Below, piece by piece: positions 3,401 through 31,625 of a stretch of 32,007 nucleotides of DNA (the stretch's first letter is position 1; the number at the start of each line of letters is the position of its first letter). The position numbers were made by a program, and so were the translations under genes. The notes under the pieces were generated by a model that ran no database searches, had not been told where the DNA came from, and saw only the letters and a program-made list of their open reading frames with translations. The DNA is taken from assembly GCF_018918095.1 (NCBI RefSeq), contig NZ_JAHLPV010000028.1, positions 1 through 32,007 on the forward strand, written 5' to 3'. This DNA is from Acetivibrio sp. MSJd-27 (GTDB lineage Bacteria; Bacillota; Clostridia; UMGS1840; HGM11507).

Positions 3401-6400
3401 TCCGGATTTATAAGTGTAATATCTTCTGCTGACGGCGTTCCGACGCCGGAATAAGGAATTTCAAGAAGAAGTGCGCTCTGACCGCTTGCGCCGTCAACCT
3501 TGACCTTTGCTTCTTTTTCATTTCCGCCCGCGGATGTGTCTGCAAGAGTTACAACCGAAAGCGCGTAAATGTTCGTTCCGTAGTATGCCGTAACGTCGTC
3601 TGCATTTGCAAGCGACATACCTTCAATTCCTTCGCGGTGCGGAGGACTCAGATCGATGTTTTTGCCGAATGATACGCTTTCGCCCCAGTAATAAATCACG
3701 CCGAAACGTATACCTATAATTTTGATATTGGCGCCGACAAATTCATGCGATACCGCCGCCTCGACTCCGGCAAGCTCTTTTCCGCCGACAAGCGGAATAC
3801 TGTCGGGTATGCATATACTTGCAAATATATAACCGTAGAAATAGTTATCCGCAATGGTTACGGTAATACCTCCGGTTATGAGACCGTCAATAATGCTTGC
3901 GTTTCCGTACAGGTTAAGCTCCCACGGCTCTATCCACCTTGCGCTTATACCTGCCTTTACGTCGATAAGCTTTTCAAGACCTTTTGTCTTAAGCTTCATA
4001 TCTCCGGTAAGCGACAGGCCCTCAAGGCTAACCTTTGCGTTAAAATCGCCTGTCAATACGCCTATCGCTTCAAGGCGCGTAAACAAAAGTATTGTGAGCG
4101 GCGGAAGTTTGTCAAATTCACCGCCGATTGTGTCGGCAAGCCCGTTTATTCCGCCACCGAGACCGGCTATAAAGAGCACCGGCGGCGCAACGGGAATTTT
4201 AAGACCGTCACGGATATAAAATTCTATTTTATCGGGTACGATTACATCTTTGTTTTTAACGTTGACCTGTTTAAATGCAAGGATACCTTCGCACTCGATA
4301 ATTTTGATGTTCAGACCTGCATTTATCTCGTATTCGTTTTCTATCGTGTTGATTTTTACACTTGCGTAAATTCCGGGAGAATTTGCAACAAGCGAGCCCA
4401 GGACGTCCTTTGGAAGCGCAAGCGAGAAAGCGGCGTCAATGCCGATAAATCCCGTATCGCTTACCTTTACATATCCGTCCTCAACATCGCCTTTCTCACC
4501 GAAAAGCACATTGTCTACCTCTGCCGAAAGCTGACCCTCCGACAGCTTCGTGTCCTTTTGGATTTTGTCACCCGTAGAGGTTCTTTTCGGCGGATTTTCG
4601 TCAAACATGCTTGTCATCTCGCCCGAAATATCCTCCTGGTCGGCAGTAAGACTTTCGTCAAACAGATTGTTAAGTTCTTCGCCTATATCCTCCTGGTCGG
4701 CGGTAAGGTCCGGCTGTTCTTTGTTTTTCGGTGCCTTAATCGGTATGCTTATGCTTCCTCCGAAGCCTATTCCGTGAGTGACCATGCCGTCCGAATCGTC
4801 ATACCACTGCGAGCTTAAAACACCGTATTTCAAATCTACGGCAAAGCCGCCGAGCGACTGAATCATGGTTGCCGCTCCGTCAAGAGAAAGATTGAGAGAA
4901 CGCACTGTTACGCCCTGACCGATTGCGTCCGAAAGGCGTTCCTCGTCAAGAGTATACGCAATGCCTTTGGTCGCCGAGATACTCCACTTGCTTCTCCAAA
5001 CGTTTATTGAATTTACAACCTTTAAAAGTCCGTCGCCTTCAACCCTGCAGGAAGAGCCTCTTCTGTAAAGTTTAAGCGGTTTTTCGCCCTCATAGGAAAG
5101 CATGTTGTTTATGATGATGTCGCCCGACTGAAAGTCTGCCTGCCAGAAGGTTTCGCCGGTAGCCGCATCCTTCATCTCGCGGAGGTTGGCGCGGACTGTA
5201 AGCAGAATTTCATGCTGCTTTATGGACTCTTTATCTTTGCCGAAGTTGTATTTTACCGTTTTGCCGTCAAGCCTGCCCTTTGATGCAAGCTCGCCTTTAT
5301 AAAAGCTTAAATATTCGCTTTCGTTTCTGAACGTATGGAAATCATACGAACCTGCCTCAGCCCCGTCGGTTGTGCGGACGAGCGCCGCCATGCCGTAGGA
5401 TTTAAGCTGATATTTTTTGTCTGCCGATACCTGAAGTTTTTGGCTGCATGTTAAGGATTTGCATTTCAGATTATCCTGCAGACGGGTATCGTTTATTTCA
5501 AATACGATTTTATAATCACCCACATAAAGCTGTTCTTCGGTTGTGAATGTAAGCGTTTCGCCCGTTTCATCCAAAAACGCAATGTTTTTCTTATCAATGG
5601 TTACGCTTTCGCCTGTTGTATCATGAACAAGCTTCAGCTCCACGGCCGCGTCGTTTGCCAGTACAGCCTCAAGCGGCTTCATTTTTCCCGAAATCGTTAC
5701 AGCCTTTTCGCCGTCTGTATACACGATTTTGGGATTTATTTTGTTAAACTGGATTTTAGAAACTTCGCCGACAGACGGTAGTATAAGACTTCTCTGCGCC
5801 GCTGTTTCAAAATCCTCCTGATTGCCGTCCGAGAGCGTCTTTACACCGCTTAACGATACATAAACCGTGCCTGCCGTGAGATCGTCCTGGGGAAGCGCTT
5901 TAAGGGTATATTTAAGGGTTTTTATCTCTTTGCCCAGGCCCACATATTTAATCTGTTCCTCTCCGTCAACAAGTTCAAACTGTTTATCGTCAACAGTGAG
6001 ATTTACCACTACATTGCTAAGCTCTGCTGCATTGTCAACGGTATTGTCAATGTTAACGGTAACATTGATTTTGCCGTCGTTTTTGTATGACTTTTTGTCT
6101 GCGGAAAGCTCAACGCGCTCTGCCGTGATGTCAATGCCCATTGCCTCGCCGGTGGTATTTGAAAAGTTACCCACACCGTAGAGCATTTCCCCGGTAAAGC
6201 TTTCGCCGTTTTGCAGGGTATTGTTTTCCCAGTAAATTGCCGCCGCACTGTCCGGCTCGCGGTAGTCATTTGAATAGTTCGTAAAATCGCAGTACGGGTC
6301 GGGTGTGTAGTCGTAGCGTACATTCGCAAGGTTTGCCCAGTGTCCGAGTATAACCTTGCTCGGTCTTGTTCCCCCGTTCCAGCCCTGCGCCTGCATCAGA

Positions 6401-7086: not shown

Positions 7087-10000
7087 TTAATTACTCAGAT
7101 ATACGCAAAGTGTAAAGTAATCGCGCTTGTCGGTCTGAACATAGAAGGTATACCAGCCTTCGGAAAGGTCCGGAACCTCAAAATCGCCGTTTTCGTTTTT
7201 ACTTACCATTATGCCGTCTTTTTTCATCTGTCCCATTGTTTTAACGCCGCTTTGGTACCTTACATATGCTGTTCCGGAAAAGTTTGCAAGCGATATTTTT
7301 ATACTGCTGCCGGTAACTTCGCTTCGTCCGGCAAAGTCCGGAAGCGAGCCGTTTACAAATGCGACCGTGTCATTAATGCCCACAAGACGGATTGTTCTCT
7401 TTGCAGTCATTGTGTTATGAGCCGAATCCGTTACCTTGTAGGTAACTGTATACGGTTTGCTTGAGTCAAATTTGTTTTGGCTCAAATCGCTTGCATTAAA
7501 TCCGCCCCAGTCTATCTCTACATTTTCGGTAAGGTCTGTCTTTTTGCCGTTAAACACATCATATGCCTTATATGCAGTGTACTTGCCGTCCTTTACATAT
7601 TTGAGCATGCTTATGTCATAGTCGGAGTTCATTTGTGGATTTTCATAAAATACCAATTCCGCCCCCAGTTCCGAAAGGTCTATTACAGGTGCGGTCTTGT
7701 CGATAATCTCAATATCGATGCCGTAGCTTGCCGTAAGCCCGTTTTTCTTTTCCGTGTTGAAAATAAACAGTCCGTTCCGGTCGTAAACCTTTTCCTTTAC
7801 CTTGTCATAACCGTCATTGCTGCCGATAAGACGCGTATCGTCATCGGTTTCGACAGTTACCGTAACGTCTTTGTTTGTAATCTTGTGTATATCCGAGCCT
7901 ACGATATAGCCTGCCGTACCGTCAACGGGAGTTTTCTGCCCGTTTGCGGTTTTTGTAACCCAGTTTTCGCCGTCAAACTCGTCATAATCATAGCTCCATT
8001 TTACACTTGTGATTTTCGGAGCCTTTTTGTCTATACCGTCAATGTTGATTGAAACGAAAGACGACAGACCTTCTTTGTCATGAACCTTAAAGGTATAGTT
8101 GCCGTTTTCGTAGAATGTGTAGCTGTTTTTATTCCCGTCCTCATCCGCAACCGGCTTTGTTATACCGCCGTAGGTTACGAATATGTCGGATTCTTTTCTT
8201 TGCAGATCCATTGCGCTTGTCAGAACGTCAACCTTATCAAAGGTTACCGAAACAACCGATGGGTCTGTGGTTGTATCATATACCGGTTCGAGAACAGGAG
8301 GAGTTTTGTCAATATTTTTCACTGCCACAATAAGCGGATTATCACTGTTTGAATTGCCGTAATCGTCCTCATAGCAAACTCCGACAGTTCCCGATTTTGT
8401 AAACGTTATGACAGATGTGCTGTAATTTACGCTGTAATCCGCCGCCGTAAGCGGTGCGACAGGTTCAATGTTTACAATCTTTACATTCGGTTTTGAAAAG
8501 CTTACGGTTGCGTTTACCGGACGCGAGGTATATTCCTCCGTGCTGTAGGTAACTGTCGCCTCAGGTATAACAGTGTTGATGTTTTTAATGTTAAAGCTTT
8601 TTACCGTTTTGTTTGCAACCCTGTCAAAAAGCGTTATGCTGTATGTGCCGTTTTGAGAAATATCGCCTTTGTATACCGCATATTTTACTTTTTCCGTTCC
8701 CTCGGTGCCGAGCTCATATTCTTCAATCTTAGTAAGTGTAACTTCATCCGCTCCGCTTGTAAGCTTAACTGTTCCTATTCCGCTTTTTGCGTCCGAAACG
8801 GTAACGGTAACCTCAACGGGTTTATTTGTCTTTGATGTTGTCGAAAGCTTGTAATCAACCGTACCCGGTTCGTTGTCAAAGTTTTTGAGCGAAACGTTAA
8901 CGTCTGCGCGATAGTTGTACTTATCTTTGAGATTGAAGGTAAACTCATTTTGGTAGCTGTTTAATATCTTCTCATTGCTTCTGTTATTGTTTGTAACCGC
9001 AAGTGCTCTTTCTTCTCCGCGGCTTCCTTCCGGAATCTCTATTACCGCTTTTGCATTTTTGTAATATGTATTTTCAATGTCGGTAAATTCTTCCCAGCTG
9101 CCTTCGGAATTTTCAAAGAAGTATTTGACATTGTAGTCCTTACCCTCTTCTATAGGCATTTTGTAAATTATGCCGACTGTCGAAAGTCCGCTCTCGCTTC
9201 CGCCGCTATCGCCTCCGGCTCTGAAATAGATGCCGGGGTATGCGTCTGCGCCGCAGGTGTTTGTAAATATTCCCGCTTTCTTTAGCGAATAAGCGTCGGT
9301 GAAGGTATAGGTAAGTGTTTTTTCGCCGTATATGTCGCCGTCGCCGAAGTATTCAATCTTGACGGGAATAGGTTTTGCCGCTAAAACAGGTGCTCCGTTT
9401 TCTTCGTCATATTCTTCGACGCCGCCCATATGTTCGTTTCCGTCCCAACTCCAGTATTCTGTGGGGTTTCCGTTTTCATCCGTCATAGGAACGTAAACCT
9501 CTTCATAACCGCCGTCGGGCGTCATATACACCACTGCCAGTATCTTGCCTATGCCCGATTCCTTATCCTGCGCACGGAGTGTATATGTTACATCTTCGGG
9601 TGTGGGATGCGGTACGAGCGCGGTATAAAATTCGCCGTTTCCGTAATCAACCGTTTCATAGGTTAAGACCTCCGGAGTAACCGACCATTTAATTATCGGA
9701 GCGTCATTGTCAATACCGCTTAAAACAACGCTTCTTTCCGCCACCTGACCGGGGTCGCTGATGTCTGCATTTCTCTGGAACGCACGAACGTTTATGATAC
9801 GCTCAGTAACGTCCGAAAGCCTGTAATATCCGCTGCCGTCGTCGATTTCGATAGGTTTCAGACTGTACACAAGCTTCGTATAACCCTTTATTTCGCCATT
9901 ATCATACGGATCGTCCTCCGACGGTTCTCTTGAGTAAACCGCATAATCTTTTGACGAATATTCGCTGAATATAAGGCCGTTTGTGTACCATGCTTCAATA

Positions 10001-22755: not shown

Positions 22756-24486
22756 ATGTTTCGTGAAAAGCTGAATAAATATATGGAGCTGCTGCATTGC
22801 TCCGGCAAAGAATTTGCAGAATACTCCGGAATATCCGAAGCTACCGTAAGCCGATACAGATCCGGTGCAAGAACACCAAAGGCAAATTCGGAAGATATGA
22901 AAAAGCTGTGCCACGGGATTTGTGCAGCGGCAGAGAAAAAGGAAATTGACTTATCGTACAAAACCGTGTTGTCGGAATTGAATACTCTTGCGGAAGCCGT
23001 GTCGTTTGATTATGATTCTTTGCAAAAAAAACTGAATGTGCTTTGCACTGTCTTTTCGGTGAACCTTGCAGATATGTCGAAAAGCCTGAAATATGACTCG
23101 TCATATATTTCAAGAATACGAAACGGCAAACGCAGACCTGCAAATCCCCAAAAGTTTGCCTATGATGTTGCAGGGTATTTTTCGGTTTGCTATAATTCCG
23201 ACGGTGATAAAAAAATCATTGCGGAAATCTTAAACATAAAGCCAAGTTTGATTAAGGCAAGGGATAATTATGTGTCCGAGCTTACAAGCTGGCTTACGGA
23301 CAGTAAGGTAACGAAAAAGCCGGAAAATCCGATTGGCAATTTTTTATCTGCTCTTAATTCATTTGACTTGAATGAGTACATAAAAGCAATTCGTTTTGAC
23401 GAATTGAAAGTTCCGTCGCTTCCGTTTCAGCTTCCGACAGCAAAAAGCTATTATGGGATTGATGAAATGAAAAACGGCGAGCTTGATTTTCTGAAAGCGA
23501 CTGCTCTTTCAAAATCAAATCACGATGTATTTATGTATAGCGATATGCAGATGGACGATATGGCAGCCGATATGGAATTTTCAAAAAAATATATGTTCGG
23601 TCTTGCCGTAATGCTGAAAAAGGGATTGCACCTCAATGTTATTCATAATCTCAACCGCCCTTTTAACGAGCTTATGCTGGGGCTTGAGTGCTGGATACCT
23701 CTTTATATGACAGGGCAAATTTCACCGTACTACCTGAAAGGTGCACACAATCAGCTTTTTTGTCATTTTTTGAATGTGTCCGGTGCGGCGGCATTATCCG
23801 GAGAGTGTGTTTCGGGTTTCCACGCAAAGGGCAGATATTATCTGACAAAAAACAAAGATGAACTTTCTTATTATCAAGAGAGAAGCTCATTTATATTAAA
23901 AAAAGCGTACCCGCTTATGGATATTTACCGTGAGGATAAATCGGCAGAACTTGCCGCATTTATGATTTCCGACTCTCATACAGACGGCAATCGGCAAAGC
24001 GTACTTTCGGCACTTCCGATTTATACGGCAACTAATGAGTTTTTAGAAAGCTTTCTTGACAACAGAAATGTACCGAATGACGAAAAGCAAAAAATCCTTG
24101 ACTACGCAGCAACACGCAGAGAACAGATTTTTGAAATTCTTAAAAACAACTCTGTTTCGGATGAAATTCCACGGCTGAGCAAGGAGGAATTTAATGACAA
24201 TCCCCAAGCTCTTTCGTTATCGCTTATGTTCTGCAATGAAAATCTTGAGTATACATATAATGAATACGCCGAGCATCTAAGGCTCACAAAAGAATTTGCG
24301 GAGAAAAACAAAAATTATTCCGTCACACGGACAAAAGAAAACGTATTTGCCAACATACAAATAACAATGCACGAAAACGAATATGTTATGATTTCAAAAA
24401 ATAAAGCGCCGACTGTTCATTTTGTAATACGCCATCCAACGCTTCGGAAGGCAATAGAAAATTTAGAATTTCCAATGTTGAATTGA
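22756..24486 (+). CDS. Large regulator with two N-terminal helix-turn-helix domains
   Basis: The 576-residue soluble protein carries two XRE/Cro-like HTH segments: residues about 16-41 (GKEFAEYSGISEATVSRYRS) and about 103-128 (LADMSKSLKYDSSYISRIRN). The remaining 430 residues form a domain I recognise only as recurring in clostridial regulators, with a conserved-looking stretch LHLNVIHNLNRPFNELMLGL. The start follows AAGGAAG at a normal distance. It is divergent from the LRR/SLH operon, with a palindrome between them, so it may regulate surface-protein expression. It could instead be cargo of the neighbouring mobilizable element. No enzymatic motif was identified. Confidence 0.75.
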   Translation: MFREKLNKYMELLHCSGKEFAEYSGISEATVSRYRSGARTPKANSEDMKKLCHGICAAAEKKEIDLSYKTVLSELNTLAEAVSFDYDSLQKKLNVLCTVFSVNLADMSKSLKYDSSYISRIRNGKRRPANPQKFAYDVAGYFSVCYNSDGDKKIIAEILNIKPSLIKARDNYVSELTSWLTDSKVTKKPENPIGNFLSALNSFDLNEYIKAIRFDELKVPSLPFQLPTAKSYYGIDEMKNGELDFLKATALSKSNHDVFMYSDMQMDDMAADMEFSKKYMFGLAVMLKKGLHLNVIHNLNRPFNELMLGLECWIPLYMTGQISPYYLKGAHNQLFCHFLNVSGAAALSGECVSGFHAKGRYYLTKNKDELSYYQERSSFILKKAYPLMDIYREDKSAELAAFMISDSHTDGNRQSVLSALPIYTATNEFLESFLDNRNVPNDEKQKILDYAATRREQIFEILKNNSVSDEIPRLSKEEFNDNPQALSLSLMFCNENLEYTYNEYAEHLRLTKEFAEKNKNYSVTRTKENVFANIQITMHENEYVMISKNKAPTVHFVIRHPTLRKAIENLEFPMLN

Positions 24487-24614: not shown

Positions 24615-26303
24615 TTACCGTTCATTTTCTTTTTCTTGTTTACGGCGGATATTTTCGGTTTTTTGCACACTTTTCTTGTTTCTGTAATTTTCAAGCCGTT
24701 TGCGTACGGAATACCTGTCTGCTTCACCTATGGCTTTATCGGTTTCGGATTTTGCGGTATTAAAGATTTCTCTTGAAAATGAATTGCCGTAAATTTTTTG
24801 CAGTTCGGATATTGTTTCACTTTCAGCCTGTGGTCTGATGTCATAACGCAAATCTTGTAATTCTTCCGTATCAAATTCCTGTGCCTGTTCCTTTAACTGG
24901 GCATATTCCTTTTGAGCGTTGTCAAGCCTTGTTTTGCTTTCGTTTGAGTGTCTTTCCATAATGGGAACGGCTTTTTGAATATCGTTTAGTTTACTCTTAA
25001 CTGTCTGAATATCATTTGTATTGAGGTTTGCTAAAACCGTGTTTTTCTCTGTACGCAATTCCTCAATTTGCTCCGACAGTTCATTGACAGCTTGCGTTAA
25101 TTCCTTATGCCTGAAAATCTTAATCGGCGGCGTTTTTGCCTTTTCGTCCTGTTTCTGCTTGCGCTCGCTGATTTTTGATTTTAATTCAGCGATGATTTCA
25201 GAATAATCATCGCAGTGAAATTTCAGCCTTGCGGCTTCTGCTGTCTTTGCGGTTTTCCACTTATCCGCAAAATTTATGACATACCGACAATGAATCATTG
25301 TACTGCGTAATTTTTCAAGCGTTTCCGCAACGGCGGGCAGGGTGCGTTTAACAGCCTCCGTCAGCTTCTTTATCCGTTTTTTGATTTCACGCAAAATACG
25401 GTTGTCCTCTTTAATCTGCCGATTTAATTCGCACCGTTCGGAAACACCGCCTTTTTTCTCGATTATCCTTGCGGAAATCCCCTCATAAATTGTCGGCTGT
25501 TCATCAATGCCCCTTGCTTTATGACTTCGGTGGTCAATACGGCTTTCGGATTTTGCAAGTTCAAGATATTTATTTGAAATACCAGCCCAATTTTTTCGCC
25601 ATATCTGCAACTGCTCCTCGCTGTTCCAACGCTCCGTTATGGGATTTTGTCTGCCGTAGCGTGTGCTTTTCGGATATTTTGAAACACGCTCCAACCCCTC
25701 TGCCTGTGACGGCGGCATATATACTTTCTTTTTCCCGACAAAATACTGATATTGTTTTTCCCAGCCGTCAGCCTGTGCTGCCTTAAACTCGGCTGATGTA
25801 AAACCCCGTTCCTCACCGTTTTTAACGCACAAATATTCTTTTTCGGTTTTGCTCTGCCACTTGCCGTTTTTGTCAAGCGGTCGGACGGTCAGCATAATAT
25901 GTGCGTGTGGGTTGTGTCCGTCCGTATCGTGAATACAGAAATCGGCGCACATTCCGTCTGCTGCAAAATTGTCCTTTACATATTCGGATATTAAGGATAT
26001 ATTTTGTTCTCTGCTCAGCTCAACAGGCAAGGCAACAACAAATTCCCGTGCAAGCCTGCTGTCCTTTGTTTTCTCGGCTTCTTCAACGGCATTCCATAAC
26101 ACACTTCGGTCTTGCCATTCCGGCGGAGCTTGCGGTGGCAGCAGCACCTGTTCATAGACAAGACCGTGCTTTCTCGTATAATCGTGCTGCACTCCGTCAT
26201 AATCGTTGAAAATCTTGGAACAGCTCATATATGCGGAAGCTGCAACGGCACTTCTGCCGACACCCCGACTTATGACCTTCGCTTCCAAATGATAAATTGC
26301 CAT
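24615..26303 (-). CDS. mobA: MobA/MobL-family (MOBQ) relaxase
   Basis: The 562-residue protein starts MAIYHLEAKVISRGVGRSAV, the hallmark N-terminus of RSF1010-type relaxases. Tyr25 (AASAYMS) is in the position of the nicking tyrosine, and HNPHAH (H130, H133, H135) supplies the metal-binding histidines. The C-terminal half is Lys/Glu-rich and predicted coiled coil, without a recognisable primase. It should nick the candidate oriT at about 26716 and pilot the strand into a conjugative pore supplied by another element, since no type IV secretion genes are present. AAAGGG precedes the ATG. The upstream 470 nt are packed with inverted repeats, and TnpW and DUF3847 genes lie before them in the same direction. 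Confidence 0.93.
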   Translation of the reverse strand: MAIYHLEAKVISRGVGRSAVAASAYMSCSKIFNDYDGVQHDYTRKHGLVYEQVLLPPQAPPEWQDRSVLWNAVEEAEKTKDSRLAREFVVALPVELSREQNISLISEYVKDNFAADGMCADFCIHDTDGHNPHAHIMLTVRPLDKNGKWQSKTEKEYLCVKNGEERGFTSAEFKAAQADGWEKQYQYFVGKKKVYMPPSQAEGLERVSKYPKSTRYGRQNPITERWNSEEQLQIWRKNWAGISNKYLELAKSESRIDHRSHKARGIDEQPTIYEGISARIIEKKGGVSERCELNRQIKEDNRILREIKKRIKKLTEAVKRTLPAVAETLEKLRSTMIHCRYVINFADKWKTAKTAEAARLKFHCDDYSEIIAELKSKISERKQKQDEKAKTPPIKIFRHKELTQAVNELSEQIEELRTEKNTVLANLNTNDIQTVKSKLNDIQKAVPIMERHSNESKTRLDNAQKEYAQLKEQAQEFDTEELQDLRYDIRPQAESETISELQKIYGNSFSREIFNTAKSETDKAIGEADRYSVRKRLENYRNKKSVQKTENIRRKQEKENER

Positions 26304-26320
26304 AGCGATTTTCCCTTTCC

Positions 26321-26432
26321 GTCACGCAATAGACAGCTGTTTTCGGGGACTTTAAGTGGTATATATTACCTTTGCGAAAGCAAGCCCGAAAACAGTTGAT
26401 TTTACTTGATAAAATCCGTCCTGTTGCGTGAC
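26321..26432. repeat. Nested multibranch inverted repeats in the relaxase leader
   Basis: An outer stem GTCACGCAA (26321-26329) with TTGCGTGAC (26424-26432) encloses CTGTTTTCGGG (26337-26347) with CCCGAAAACAG (26385-26395), and beside that a hairpin GATTTTA (26398-26404) with TAAAATC (26410-26416). Inside the 11-bp stem are GGTA/TACC (26358-26370) and CTTT/AAAG (26370-26380) hairpins. The fold ends 17 nt before the relaxase start, so it may hold a relaxase binding site or an mRNA switch limiting relaxase synthesis. Confidence 0.7.
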
Positions 26433-26439
26433 ATTTTTG

Positions 26440-26460
26440 TTTCTTTTTTTCAAAAAGAAA
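26440..26460. repeat. AT-rich hairpin next to the leader fold
   Basis: TTTCTTTTT (26440-26448) pairs with AAAAAGAAA (26452-26460) around TTC. It might be a weak terminator between the upstream genes and mobA, but it lacks the GC stem usual for that job. Confidence 0.4.
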
Positions 26461-26496
26461 GTGGGCGGAAGATGTATGACAGATAACGCACATTTG

Positions 26497-26525
26497 AGAT
26501 AAAAGCTGTGAAGCAGGTTTTATCT
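26497..26525. repeat. Hairpin adjoining the cloverleaf fold
   Basis: AGATAAAA (26497-26504) pairs with TTTTATCT (26518-26525), with a short inner GCT/AGC stem. It ends 2 nt before the cloverleaf-like fold, so the two may act as one structure. Confidence 0.55.
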
Positions 26526-26527
26526 TT

Positions 26528-26606
26528 GGTCGGCGGTACAACTTTGTACCAAATTGAAATAAGGCTGTTGTTTCAATTTATCTGCGGTAAAGCAGATATG
26601 CCGACC
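26528..26606. repeat. 79-nt cloverleaf-like (four-way junction) fold
   Basis: GGTCGGC (26528-26534) and GCCGACC (26600-26606) close three abutting hairpins: GGTACAA with TTGTACC (26535-26550), AAATTGAAA with TTTCAATTT (26551-26579) and ATCTGC with GCAGAT (26580-26597). All arms are perfect, and only two bases are unpaired at the junction. It is not a tRNA: no T-loop, no anticodon arm geometry and no CCA. Likely roles are an accessory part of oriT, a single-strand origin or a structured RNA. Confidence 0.7.
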
Positions 26607-26609
26607 ATA

Positions 26610-26638
26610 GCAGACAATGCGATTTTTGCGTTGTCTGC
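26610..26638. repeat. Hairpin between the cloverleaf and oriT
   Basis: GCAGACAA (26610-26617) pairs with TTGTCTGC (26631-26638). A further small stem, CTTGCC/GGCAAG (26662-26676), follows before the oriT repeat. Both continue the hairpin-dense track. Confidence 0.5.
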
Positions 26639-26679
26639 TTGCCCTCTGCAAGAGCGCACGGCTTGCCAACGGCAAGTAC

Positions 26680-26720
26680 CACCACTTGACCTGCGGTCAA
26701 GTGGTGAGTAAGCGCGCCTT
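26680..26720 (+). other. oriT: Candidate origin of transfer (oriT, MOBQ type)
   Basis: A perfect 12-bp inverted repeat, CACCACTTGACC (26680-26691) and GGTCAAGTGGTG (26695-26706), is followed at once by AGTAAGCGCGCCTTTA. RSF1010/pIP501-type origins have the same order, an inverted repeat and then (G)TAAGTGCGCCCT, with the nick after the GCG. By analogy the nick here would fall between 26716 and 26717 on the plus strand. The MOBQ relaxase gene about 375 nt away supports this. Nicking is not shown. Confidence 0.75.
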
Positions 26721-26732
26721 TATAGGGAAATT

Positions 26733-26760
26733 AAGGGGATTTTCGCATAGAAATCCCCTT
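26733..26760 (-). terminator. Hairpin after the DUF3847 gene
   Basis: AAGGGGATTT (26733-26742) pairs with AAATCCCCTT (26751-26760) across 8 nt, 15 nt past the DUF3847 stop. On the minus strand AATTTCCC follows. It probably ends or attenuates the tnpW-DUF3847 transcript before oriT. Confidence 0.55.
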
Positions 26761-26774
26761 GAAATAAATTGCTT

Positions 26775-26984
26775 TTACATCAGATTTTCCGTAAAATACC
26801 GATGCAAAAATTCCTCCAGATTATCGGTTTCTACCGTTTTTATTTCGGGTAAAACCTTTTCCAAAGCCGCACCCTCAACGATAAGCCTGTGCGTTCTCGC
26901 CTTGCGTTCCTTTACTCTGTCACGGGCGATTGCTTCTTCCAATCTGTGCTTTTCCTGCAATAATTTTTTCTCGTCCTCTGTCAT
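26775..26984 (-). CDS. DUF3847-family small protein
   Basis: The start at ATG 26984 (AAAGGAG 11 nt upstream) gives 69 residues; a longer frame upstream overlaps the tnpW-like gene and is not used. The product is a charged helix (EDEKKLLQEKHRLEEAIARD) followed by RTHRLIVEGAALEKVLPEIK, which fits DUF3847 proteins encoded beside MobA/MobL relaxases in Firmicutes mobilizable elements. Such small basic proteins may act as accessory oriT-binding factors; that role is inferred from position. Its ATG overlaps the TGA of the TnpW gene (ATGA), indicating coupling. Confidence 0.75.
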   Translation of the reverse strand: MTEDEKKLLQEKHRLEEAIARDRVKERKARTHRLIVEGAALEKVLPEIKTVETDNLEEFLHRYFTENLM

Positions 26985-27151
26985 ACTGCTTTTCGCTCCT
27001 TTACCTTGTTTTTCAGCATTGATAAAATCAAATCGTCTGCCGTTTGTTTCGTATCGGGATTTCCGAATGATGAAACAATAAATGTAATCTTGCCGCATTT
27101 TCTGCGGTATGCGTTTCCGATAGGCGCTGCTCTCGGTTTATTATTGAACAT
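26981..27151 (-). CDS. TnpW-family transposon-encoded small protein
   Basis: A 56-residue product starting MFNNKPRAAPIGNAYRRKCG, continuing KITFIVSSFGNPDTKQTADD and closing with a short basic tail. The RRKxGxxxxxVxxxFxxxxxxTxxDxILxxL pattern matches what I know of the TnpW family of clostridial transposons. The start has a strong AAAGGAGG site 7 nt upstream, and the stop overlaps the next start as ATGA. It lies 88 nt downstream of the STAND gene and probably shares its transcript. Its molecular function is unknown. Confidence 0.7.
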   Translation of the reverse strand: MFNNKPRAAPIGNAYRRKCGKITFIVSSFGNPDTKQTADDLILSMLKNKVKERKAV

Positions 27152-27210
27152 AAAAAAGCCTCCTTTCTCTGCAAACTGTAATTTCAGTTTACAGGAAAAG
27201 AGGCCGTTTT

Positions 27211-27245
27211 ACATTGAGCGCAAATTGAGCGTAAATTGACTAATT
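27211..27245 (+). repeat. 11-bp direct repeats at the 3' end of the STAND gene
   Basis: ATTGAGCGCAA (27213-27223), ATTGAGCGTAA (27224-27234) and a partial ATTGAC unit (from 27235) follow each other at exactly 11 bp. The last unit runs into the stop codon of the STAND gene. A matching set in opposite orientation lies upstream of that gene's start. Confidence 0.65.
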
Positions 27246-29519
27246 TTCCGATATTAAATTTTGTGTATTGATTCCGTATGCGGAAACAGCGTCTTGCAGT
27301 TCGGATATTTTCCGCTGCGTAAGCTCCGGCTCGTCCTCATAAATTTCGGCATAGATATTCAATGCCCTTTTCAAATACGGTACGGCGTTTGCCTTATCGT
27401 CCATCTGCAAATATATAATACCTGTATTCCATAAAAGCTCCGCATAAATACCGCTGTTTTCTTCCGTGTATTCGGTGCATTTCTTTAATGCCATTATTGC
27501 TTTTTCCGGCTCGCTTAAGTTTGCGGCAAGGTTGGCATAATTGCAGATTTGAGCGATACTGTCGGCTGTGTACTGCAAGTTATTTTCTGTTAAAATATAA
27601 TATGCCTTTTCCATATATATTTTCGCATTTAACATATCGCCTGTTGCGTGATACAAGCCGCCCATATTAGCGCAGATATTGGCGGCAAGGTGCGGATTTG
27701 TATTTTCATCGCATAAATTTACGGCTTGCAGCTCATATTCCAAAGCGGCGGATATGTTTTGATTACAGATGTGCTCATACGCCGATTTATAATCAAAAAG
27801 CAAAGCACGGTCATCATTGTTATGCGCCATTGTTTCAAGCTCTGCAATAATCAGCTTCATTCCGCTTTGATATGCGTACTTTTCCATATACGCAAATGCG
27901 TCTTTTATGAATATCTTGTATTTGTCCGTATCGTCCTTTTCTGCAAGCAGGATTATATTTTCAATTACCTTAAACATTGTATTGTGATACGGCAGGTCTG
28001 CTCCGTGCATAAGGCACAGGTTATGTATGCCGGCGATAAAAATTTCGCAGTTTGAAATACTCGGCTTTTTATCGTCAAGCGTGATTTCCCTTATCAGAGG
28101 GTGCAGGGTGATTTTGTGTAATTCATTTCGTTTTATCGTTCCGTATTCTATTAGCCGGTTAAGGCTGTTGAGATTTTTTAAGTTCAGCCATCGTGCAAAA
28201 AGCCTTGGATCTATGCCCTCGTCGGGAACAAAGGTCATACATTTTAATATTTCGCCGCACTCGCCGTCAAGTCCGGCAATATACATCAGTCTGTGGATAT
28301 GCTCGTAATAGGTTGCCTTTCGGTTTCTGCCGTCCTTTACGATATTTATTTTATCCTCGCTTTGCAGTATGCTTTTTAATTTTTTCAGCTCCGCAAGCAG
28401 TTTTTTCGGCTTTAATATTCCGCATGCAAGCAGACGGGCGGCAAGCTCGGCTGACAGAGTGTGACGGTGTACCTCATTAATGATTTGCGTTACAATTTCA
28501 ATTTTCTGTTCGGTTTTGTCATAGAATTTTCCGGCAAGCCCGACAAGGGTACTTTGCGGCATTTCCAAAGCCTCAAATTCCGTGTATTCGGAAAATCTGC
28601 ACCTTGTTGTAAAGAGAATTTTACAGCGGTATTGCATAATATCGTCAAAGCCGCTTTCGGGCGTGGGGACAATATCAAAATTATCAATGATAATCAGCGT
28701 GTCCTCTTTCAGACTTTTCAAAAATCGGCTGTGCCTTTCAAAACGGCTGTCAGCGTCGGTTTCCGTATCGTCGGCAAAATCGCAGTCTGCAATCATCTGT
28801 TTTAAGTTTCCGCCATACCGTAAATACAAAATATTCGTATATTCTTTTTTATATTTTTCGGCATACATTTTGGCAAGCTCACTTTTGCCTATGCCCGCAA
28901 CTCCCGTTAAAAATATTTTATCGTTTTCTTTCAGTAATTCGTGTATATTTTCAAGGTCGGTTTCCCGTCCGCAGAAATGACGGCAGGGCTTCGGTACAAT
29001 GTCATAGATGTAATCTTTCACAATGGGTGAGAGCGCTCCCGTTGATAATAATTCTTTCGTTTTGACATCGTGTTTTATAAATGTCCTGCTCATTGTAAAT
29101 AACAGTACGCGGCTTATGAAATTTGAAAGGTCAATATCATTGTTACAGGGATAATTTTCTGTAAGTTCACTTTTTAGATTTGCCGATACGGTCGTATCGT
29201 TCATCAAAATATGATACAGTTCCTCTGCCGCCATAAATTTATCATAAAGCAAGGGCAAAATATTTTGTTCAATGTCAATCGCCATTGCCTCAATATTTCC
29301 GTTTGCGGAATAATAGCTTGTAAGGCGAGAGCTTATTTTCGCCGTTCCGTTCAGCCAACGGCACACAAGCCCGTTGTCGAAATCAAAGTCAAGACCTTCG
29401 TCGCTTTCGATAAAGTCCTTGAATAAGTCGTACATAAAATCAAGCTGGCTTATACTTTTGCCGACTGCAACAAAATCAAGTATTATTTTTGCAGCCGTGC
29501 AGAAATCGCATATTCTCAT
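27240..29519 (-). CDS. STAND-family (NB-ARC-like) ATPase with TPR repeats
   Basis: The 759-residue protein has three parts. Residues 1-175 form a helical N-terminal region of no named family. A FCGRETDLENI entry (182-192) leads to a nucleotide-binding domain with Walker A GVAGIGKS (206-213), Walker B LIIIDNFD (275-282) and an FTTR sensor (303-306). After a winged-helix-like stretch, residues about 580-745 carry tetratricopeptide repeats (ANICANMGGLYHATGDMLNA, LLWNTGIIYLQMDDKANAVP). STAND proteins are signal-triggered switches, as in regulators and Avs-type phage sensors. Here it lies between recombinase and mobilisation genes, so it may control transfer or guard the element. GGAAGTG stands 11 nt before the ATG. 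Oppositely oriented 11-bp repeats flank it. Confidence 0.85.
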   Translation of the reverse strand: MRICDFCTAAKIILDFVAVGKSISQLDFMYDLFKDFIESDEGLDFDFDNGLVCRWLNGTAKISSRLTSYYSANGNIEAMAIDIEQNILPLLYDKFMAAEELYHILMNDTTVSANLKSELTENYPCNNDIDLSNFISRVLLFTMSRTFIKHDVKTKELLSTGALSPIVKDYIYDIVPKPCRHFCGRETDLENIHELLKENDKIFLTGVAGIGKSELAKMYAEKYKKEYTNILYLRYGGNLKQMIADCDFADDTETDADSRFERHSRFLKSLKEDTLIIIDNFDIVPTPESGFDDIMQYRCKILFTTRCRFSEYTEFEALEMPQSTLVGLAGKFYDKTEQKIEIVTQIINEVHRHTLSAELAARLLACGILKPKKLLAELKKLKSILQSEDKINIVKDGRNRKATYYEHIHRLMYIAGLDGECGEILKCMTFVPDEGIDPRLFARWLNLKNLNSLNRLIEYGTIKRNELHKITLHPLIREITLDDKKPSISNCEIFIAGIHNLCLMHGADLPYHNTMFKVIENIILLAEKDDTDKYKIFIKDAFAYMEKYAYQSGMKLIIAELETMAHNNDDRALLFDYKSAYEHICNQNISAALEYELQAVNLCDENTNPHLAANICANMGGLYHATGDMLNAKIYMEKAYYILTENNLQYTADSIAQICNYANLAANLSEPEKAIMALKKCTEYTEENSGIYAELLWNTGIIYLQMDDKANAVPYLKRALNIYAEIYEDEPELTQRKISELQDAVSAYGINTQNLISEN

Positions 29520-29536
29520 AATTAAAATTTCACTTC

Positions 29537-29573
29537 CTTTTTACTCAATTTCAAGTCAATTTACGGTCAATGT
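29537..29573 (-). repeat. 11-bp direct repeats upstream of the STAND gene
   Basis: On the minus strand ATTGACCGTAA (29571-29561), ATTGACTTGAA (29560-29550) and ATTGAGTAAAA (29549-29539) follow at exactly 11 bp. They lie between the promoter and the start codon, about one helical turn apart on the same face. With the set at 27211-27245 they form an inverted pair, each beginning ACATTGA, with about 26 of 35 positions equal. Confidence 0.65.
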
Positions 29574-29596
29574 TTTTTACTGATTCTTATTATACA

Positions 29597-29602
29597 ATTA
29601 TA
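29597..29602 (-). promoter_or_regulatory. Extended -10 promoter of the STAND gene
   Basis: On the minus strand TGGTATAAT provides an extended -10 (TGn) and consensus box; a second TATAAT follows 2 nt later. No good -35 box is seen. The expected transcript would carry the 11-bp repeats in its leader. Confidence 0.5.
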
Positions 29603-29651
29603 CCATAAACCGATAAAAAAAGATATATTCAGAACAGAAATTTTTGATTAG

Positions 29652-31343
<1,692 letters not shown>

Positions 31344-31363: not shown

Positions 31364-31397
31364 GTATAAATTTAGGCTCACCACCGCAATATACGAA

Positions 31398-31625
31398 TTA
31401 CTTGATTGATTTTTTGTTATTTTCCGTGTGTATAACTTCCACAATATCACCAATGTCACATTTGAGTGCTTCGCAGATTTTCAAAAGCATTGTAAAAGAA
31501 ACCACTTCGTTTTTATTTAGTTTTGTAAGTATTCCGGGAGTAATTTCTGCCATTTTTCGTAAATCAACTTTTGACAAGCTTCTTTCCGCAAGTAAAATCC
31601 ATAATTTTTTATAGTTTACACTCAT
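31398..31625 (-). CDS. XRE/Cro-type small HTH regulator
   Basis: A 75-residue single-domain repressor-like protein: MSVNYKKLWILLAERSLSKV opens it, and a Cro/C1-type helix-turn-helix spans about residues 17-60 (DLRKMAEITPGILTKLNKNE). It ends in a short basic tail. GGAGG lies 7 nt before the ATG. It follows the truncated gene at 31651 by 25 nt in the same direction, so that gene and its promoter were probably upstream partners before the insertion. It may regulate the recombinase or a lost neighbour. Confidence 0.85.
   Translation of the reverse strand: MSVNYKKLWILLAERSLSKVDLRKMAEITPGILTKLNKNEVVSFTMLLKICEALKCDIGDIVEVIHTENNKKSIK

Follow-up and report, generated by a model that had tools for sequence, protein, structure and literature searches.

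Why should a gene for a STAND NTPase be bracketed by two opposed sets of short repeats? The question is raised by a 32,007-nucleotide stretch of the Acetivibrio sp. MSJd-27 genome (hereafter, "the window"), in which three ATTGA-type units at a pitch of exactly 11 bp lie just past the stop codon of such a gene and three more, in the opposite orientation, lie before its start. A first-pass annotation had noticed these two arrays and proposed that they might be the ends of a small cassette carrying only the STAND gene, arm sites for a recombinase, or paired operators that loop the gene. The repeats are present as it described them: both arrays follow the pattern ACATTGA-N4-AAATTGA-N4-AAATTGA (27211-27239 on the plus strand, 29545-29573 on the minus strand), both start with ACATTGA, and its estimate of about 26 matching positions in 35 is reproduced by recomputation (26/35). 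The full 29-mer pattern, allowing up to three mismatches, has two sites in the window and none in 100 dinucleotide shuffles. With up to two mismatches, it has 2 matches in the whole 3.05-Mb genome, both of them these arrays, and a reversed control has 0. As the sole matches in the host genome even at two mismatches, the arrays are not background, and a random scatter of the motif through this genome is excluded. The first array adjoins the STAND stop codon (the gene ends at 27240, minus strand) and separates it from the next operon's promoter; the second is upstream of the STAND start (29519). Below, we argue that the arrays are matching operator or switch sites of two co-regulated promoters, Pint and Pmob, that would read outward from the cargo slot of a mobilisable element, a reading to which we give a probability of roughly 70%, and that the STAND gene is most likely one of several, often anti-phage, cargoes carried between the two promoters.

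Judged by its genes, the element is a small integrative mobilisable element with a MobL relaxase, a DUF3847 protein, a TnpW-like ORF, a cargo slot, and a large serine recombinase (Table 1). It carries its own relaxase and no conjugation apparatus, and the genes from MobL to the recombinase are otherwise only the TnpW-like ORF, DUF3847, and the cargo. The mobilisation operon (24615-27151) and the recombinase gene are both transcribed away from the STAND gene. The right end of the element (ACCACCGCAATATACGAATTACTTG) is conserved and lies 3' of the recombinase gene, ~1.8 kb from the nearer array; a left end and an empty site were looked for and not found. The TnpW-like ORF has no Pfam or NCBIfam match, and the N-terminal ~175-aa domain of STAND has no Pfam match. 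In the distant STAND relatives at L090, L091, L092, L093, and L094, TIR-like or kinase-like domains (assigned by eye) replace this N-terminal domain. The gap of ~470 bp between the relaxase and DUF3847 genes (26304-26774) holds no clear gene and recurs in relatives; it may contain the transfer origin. On the left side of the element, the product (576 aa) of a gene convergent with the relaxase gene (22756-24486) combines an HTH_3 domain with a further HTH-like motif.

Table 1. Coordinates of the features discussed, in window positions
Feature	Position	Strand	Description
MobA/MobL relaxase	24615..26303	-	MobQ-type
DUF3847 protein	26775..27098	-	PF12958
TnpW-like small ORF	26981..27151	-	56 aa; first gene of the mobilisation operon
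Long-stem hairpin	27158..27204	-	GCCTCTTTTCCTGTAAACTG-AAATTA-CAGTTTGCAGAGAAAGGAGGC, then T6
Pmob	27186..27239	-	array TCAATTT-ACGC-TCAATTT-GCGC-TCAATG (27212-27239) and -10-like TAAACT (27186-27191)
STAND NTPase (cargo)	27240..29519	-	759 aa; NB-ARC/AAA-like core, C-terminal TPR
Pint	29545..29598	+	array TCAATTT-CAAG-TCAATTT-ACGG-TCAATG (29545-29572) and -10-like TACAAT (29593-29598)
Extended -10	29597..29605	-	TGGTATAAT; probable inward STAND promoter, from sequence
P2, second recombinase promoter	29655..29683	+	near-consensus TTGAAA-17-TATAAT; conserved in 8 elements
Large serine recombinase	29730..31343	+	Resolvase, Recombinase, zinc ribbon, DUF4368 domains
Conserved right end of element	31380..31404	+	25 bp, ACCACCGCAATATACGAATTACTTG

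The case for promoters comes from what follows the arrays. When 37 arrays, gathered irrespective of downstream sequence so that the -10 played no part in their collection, are aligned in the outward direction, they give the consensus TCAATTT-nCgc-TCAATTT-nCgc-TCAATG. A -10 box TAnnnT lies exactly 20 nt after the array in 32 of the 37, and in 20 of the 24 that remain after removal of near-duplicates; because many of these promoters are homologous, the independent count is smaller, at about eight kinds of downstream gene. TAnnnT is a loose definition of a -10, and the stricter TAnAHT is found in 18/24. Over 2000 shuffles, TAnnnT at +20 occurred 0.9 times on average and 5 times at most, and no other offset exceeds 5 among the de-duplicated arrays. 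Several array matches do not have the -10 at +20 (L117, L064, L038). A distance of exactly 20 nt places the proximal unit at the -35 position (about -38 to -33); no -35 consensus overlaps this unit, and both Pint and Pmob are without a -35 hexamer.

Pint reads outward to the serine recombinase gene and is conserved in L034, L035, L036, L114, L115, L118, L120, L121, and L122, while Pmob reads outward to the TnpW-like/DUF3847/MobL operon and is conserved in L034, L035, L036, L037, L082, L115, L118, L121, and L123. The same array is thus found upstream of both integration and mobilisation operons, and the genes downstream of outward arrays comprise the large serine recombinase (LSR), a 39%-identical LSR, TnpW-like operons, a CHC2 primase, ParM operons, a tyrosine integrase, and small ORFs. 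A composite pattern of array plus -10 has 12 matches in 391 Clostridia genomes and none in its reversed control; 11 of the 12 fall within these elements or what is left of them, and one is inside a long ORF. With one mismatch allowed, 130 genomes sampled from the G278 family yield 8 matches and one control match. The idea of a host regulon was rejected, as the 391 genomes contain hardly any other instance of the composite promoter. The array is not the only start of the recombinase gene, because P2 is also present. The extended -10 that probably serves the inward STAND promoter overlaps the -10 of Pint, which would put the right-hand array in the 5' leader of the STAND gene.

Between the Pmob array and the start codon of the TnpW-like gene there is a hairpin with a 20-bp stem and a folding energy of -33.5 kcal/mol (z -9.8), and a consensus fold of 11 elements retains it, with compensatory change in 7 of 16 pairs. 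The 5' arm includes part of the Pmob spacer and the -10, and the 3' arm includes the Shine-Dalgarno of the TnpW-like gene. As RNA started at Pmob is without the 5' arm and read-through RNA has both arms, the hairpin would form only in cargo read-through RNA. It probably blocks read-through from the cargo, which suggests that cargo transcription is unable to switch on mobilisation. A simple terminator scan reported no terminator in this region, although the hairpin and its T6 are very stable; a hairpin in the recombinase leader is not above shuffles.

Array loci were collected by pattern and protein searches of Clostridia genomes, which are drafts and come partly from metagenomes. Related opposed pairs in other Clostridia bracket different cargo. 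In L034, L035, L118, and L120, a STAND gene (56-77% identical) is alone between the arrays; the slot holds STAND, AbiE, and Lamassu in L036, a flavin reductase and an acetyltransferase (GNAT) in L115, and sigma-factor genes with the last 65 residues of a STAND in L121, and AbiE adjoins the recombinase-side array in L122. Opposed arrays in L176 and L177 enclose STAND with transporter and sensor-kinase genes on a different chassis (ParM, RepA_N, DnaC, DUF3847, MobL). Arrays precede a primase, a ParM operon, and a tyrosine integrase in L116 and L124, and in L124 both arrays face the same direction. Searches of plasmids and phages returned only distant STAND and LSR relatives, and those checked were without arrays except L082, which has STAND, a TnpW-like gene, and an array with 3 mismatches.

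The first-pass annotation had suggested checking whether gain or loss of the STAND gene breaks at the repeats. Similarity between loci with and without it does end at or just inside the arrays, yet across cargo swaps the arrays remain with the flanking mobilisation or recombinase genes. When L118, L115, and L122 are compared, similarity on the recombinase side covers the recombinase and the array and is lost at the array's inner edge; on the mobilisation side, it extends for another ~75 bp beyond the array, enters a terminator-like inverted repeat, and is then lost. These breaks indicate that the arrays belong to the chassis. Remnants of STAND occur inside swapped cargo in L036, L121, L123, L066, and L078. 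Cargo is thus exchanged within the slot, also within STAND, and not as an array-ended cassette; the arrays are unlikely to be cassette ends because they follow the chassis and because exchanges also break inside STAND.

Some individual loci deserve mention in their own right. In L036, the AbiE and Lamassu insertion lies between near-perfect direct repeats of 84 bp from the STAND 3' end (4047-4130 and 8776-8860), with a copy of that 3' end beside the mobilisation-side array, as though a module had inserted at the stop codon and a copy of the target end had come with it. L078, a prophage contig, has opposed arrays at 360 (+) and 4416 (-) around a STAND remnant slot that contains a sigma-factor-like and ABC-transporter operon, with the right array upstream of the sigma operon. 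L066 (1836-6383) has an array and then a STAND remnant between AbiE and McrBC-like genes (by resemblance), forming a small defence cluster. Similar 11-bp units were also seen in G125, where long tandem arrays (9-14 overlapping matches of an AAATTGA-N4 unit; L019 1450-1650 and L062 1500-1700) lie upstream of two near-identical gene pairs. Four to five such units occur in G117 (L039 7783-7816), upstream of a gene beside a very long ORF (2206 aa), and in G064 (L040 1727-1762), upstream of a nitrogenase-reductase-like gene. After examination, the arrays in G125, G117, and G064 were set aside as different contexts.

The array, its fixed -10, its association with chassis operons, its independence of the cargo, and the hairpin are read from the sequence. 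On our preferred reading, one and the same operator array would stand at the start of both divergent chassis operons of the element: a protein bound on one face of three turns would recruit RNA polymerase, and integrase and mobilisation genes would be switched on together. Cooperative binding along one DNA face, as the first-pass annotation had suggested, fits the 7+4-bp direct repeats and the fixed distance to the -10. The paired operators of its looping proposal also fit, with the same array at two promoters. That the arrays resemble inverted repeats around the slot would follow from the divergence of the two operons. The hairpin in cargo read-through RNA would sequester the ribosome-binding site, leaving only Pmob-started transcripts to be translated. 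Since the inward cargo gene probably has an array in its leader, binding there could also block cargo transcription. We infer activation rather than repression, as well as the insulation and the identity of the binder, for which the candidates are a protein encoded by the host, by a helper conjugative element, or possibly STAND. None of the arrays found lay at genes recognisable as those of a helper element; a regulator supplied by a helper would account for elements that have the operator and no regulator of their own.

Several other readings of the arrays have to be weighed against this one. Opposed 29-bp arrays with a common outer end, T-runs on both flanks, and a cargo breakpoint that coincides with the array inner edge on the recombinase side could be the terminal inverted repeats of a MITE-like or mobile-insertion-cassette-like STAND cassette, with a transposase or recombinase acting on it in trans. 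However, the arrays are conserved with their chassis flanks although the cargo differs, even entirely, and this holds equally against the STAND-only cassette of the first-pass annotation. The STAND remnants within swapped cargo and the same-direction arrays of L124 also speak against such a cassette, an outward -10 at exactly +20 is not expected of transposon ends, and no empty site, transposase, or target duplication beyond the T-run was found; we consider this reading highly improbable. Arm or att sites of the recombinase were rejected, as 1.8 kb separates the nearer array from the conserved end of the element and arrays are also found ahead of unrelated genes (tyrosine integrase, primase, ParM). 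LytTR-type operators do not match in spacing. Three-unit arrays beside mobilisation and primase genes would also suit repressor operators, or relaxosome or plasmid-type maintenance sites, that silence int and mob, the -10 then marking overlap with the promoter; similar repeats could serve a repressor or a relaxosome protein. Prophage-like repressors often overlap both divergent promoters, and basal transcription of the recombinase would need no activator, because P2 has a good -35. We still find silencing improbable: Pint and Pmob have no -35 hexamer, the single exact distance from proximal unit to -10 is typical of activator contact, and the elements share no repressor gene.

The arrays might instead be bound by STAND itself, as the regulator of its own leader, Pint, and Pmob, with an N-terminal HTH-like domain, the NB-ARC as switch, and the TPR as sensor; elements without STAND would then hold relic arrays or borrow STAND from another element. 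All close homologues (42-77% identity) with a readable upstream region have an array ~25-150 bp ahead of the STAND gene, on several chassis, an association that is partly circular because several of these homologues were found via the array. A diverged array of TTGAC units that retains the 11-bp pitch (shuffle p 0.001) accompanies a homologue of 32% identity (G209, L095), and five distant TIR- or kinase-headed relatives have no upstream array; the repeat upstream in L096 is too weak to count. The STAND N-terminus has an XRE-like motif (VCRWLNGTAKIS), and SARP/AfsR-type NB-ARC/TPR regulators use repeats of this kind. On the other hand, STAND was undetected in 8 of the 12 array-bearing genomes tested, of which some are 98-100% complete; others are incomplete, and some of the arrays are in decayed elements, which weakens this count as evidence against STAND. 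Intact arrays drive elements that have no STAND (L115, L122, L124), the N-terminus has no Pfam DNA-binding domain even at E 10, structure prediction of STAND failed (mean pLDDT 46), and an R. albus homologue (26%) has no array. Binding by STAND is thus doubtful. We think it unlikely, by a shade more, that the element-encoded STAND is a sensor switch tying a defence-like NTPase to the decision of the element to leave, in which one nucleotide state would keep its own leader active, with cargo on and mobility off, and the other would turn on the integrase and mobilisation promoters and block its own gene.

If the arrays are the operators of two co-regulated outward promoters, as we propose, they would amount to a simple code for when defence-carrying mobilisable elements of Clostridia excise and move, and the guard hairpin would keep the expression of cargo apart from that of the mobility genes. 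The specificity of the motif suffices to locate such elements and, through them, new cargo: the slot in relatives holds AbiE, Lamassu, sensor kinases, and transporters, and on a prophage contig McrBC and AbiE adjoin an array-STAND remnant.

Individual parts of this arrangement have counterparts in known systems. A hairpin present only in read-through RNA hides the ribosome-binding site of the IS10 and IS50 transposase genes, and the Pmob hairpin would do the same; here, it would guard a mobilisation operon from cargo transcription, and it also overlaps the promoter. With the operators of the OmpR/PhoB family (pho box, M. tuberculosis PhoP, KdpE), the arrays share 7-bp direct repeats, a 4-bp spacer, an 11-bp pitch, and a fixed position relative to the promoter, and PhoB places its proximal unit at the -35 position, as is seen here. 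The differences are the sequence, TCAATTT, and the use in mobile elements rather than host genes. For M. tuberculosis PhoP, sites of 7-bp repeats with 4-bp spacers have been reported (PMC4832192).

As a chassis, the element resembles the mobilisable transposons Tn4451/Tn4453 (TnpX-type), which are small and have a large serine recombinase, Mob, a TnpW-like gene, and one cargo slot (described in part in PMC5704250). In contrast, reference plasmids yield LSR matches of no more than 42% identity (TndX-type), and the arrays are absent from the seven plasmid or phage LSR loci checked, one of which has an annotated TnpW gene immediately before the LSR gene. The first-pass annotation knew of no described element of this form, which holds for the motif in the literature searched and does not extend to the principle, since integrative mobilisable elements (IMEs) tuned by a helper are known. 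A review of IMEs argues that most are probably timed by helper regulators and lists SGI1, the MGIs, and NBU1 as cases, all in Gram-negative bacteria (PMC5704250). In SGI1 and the MGIs, which respond to AcaCD of IncA/C plasmids and SetCD of SXT ICEs, one operator serves integration/excision and mobilisation promoters, the promoters have no -35 box, and the IME may use the regulator of its helper (PMC5704250, PMC5058578); the AcaCD promoters of SGI1 have no -35 box and share an activator site (PMC5058578). What sets the present elements apart from SGI1 and the MGIs is their occurrence in Clostridia, their serine recombinase, and an operator of three direct heptamers at an 11-bp pitch.
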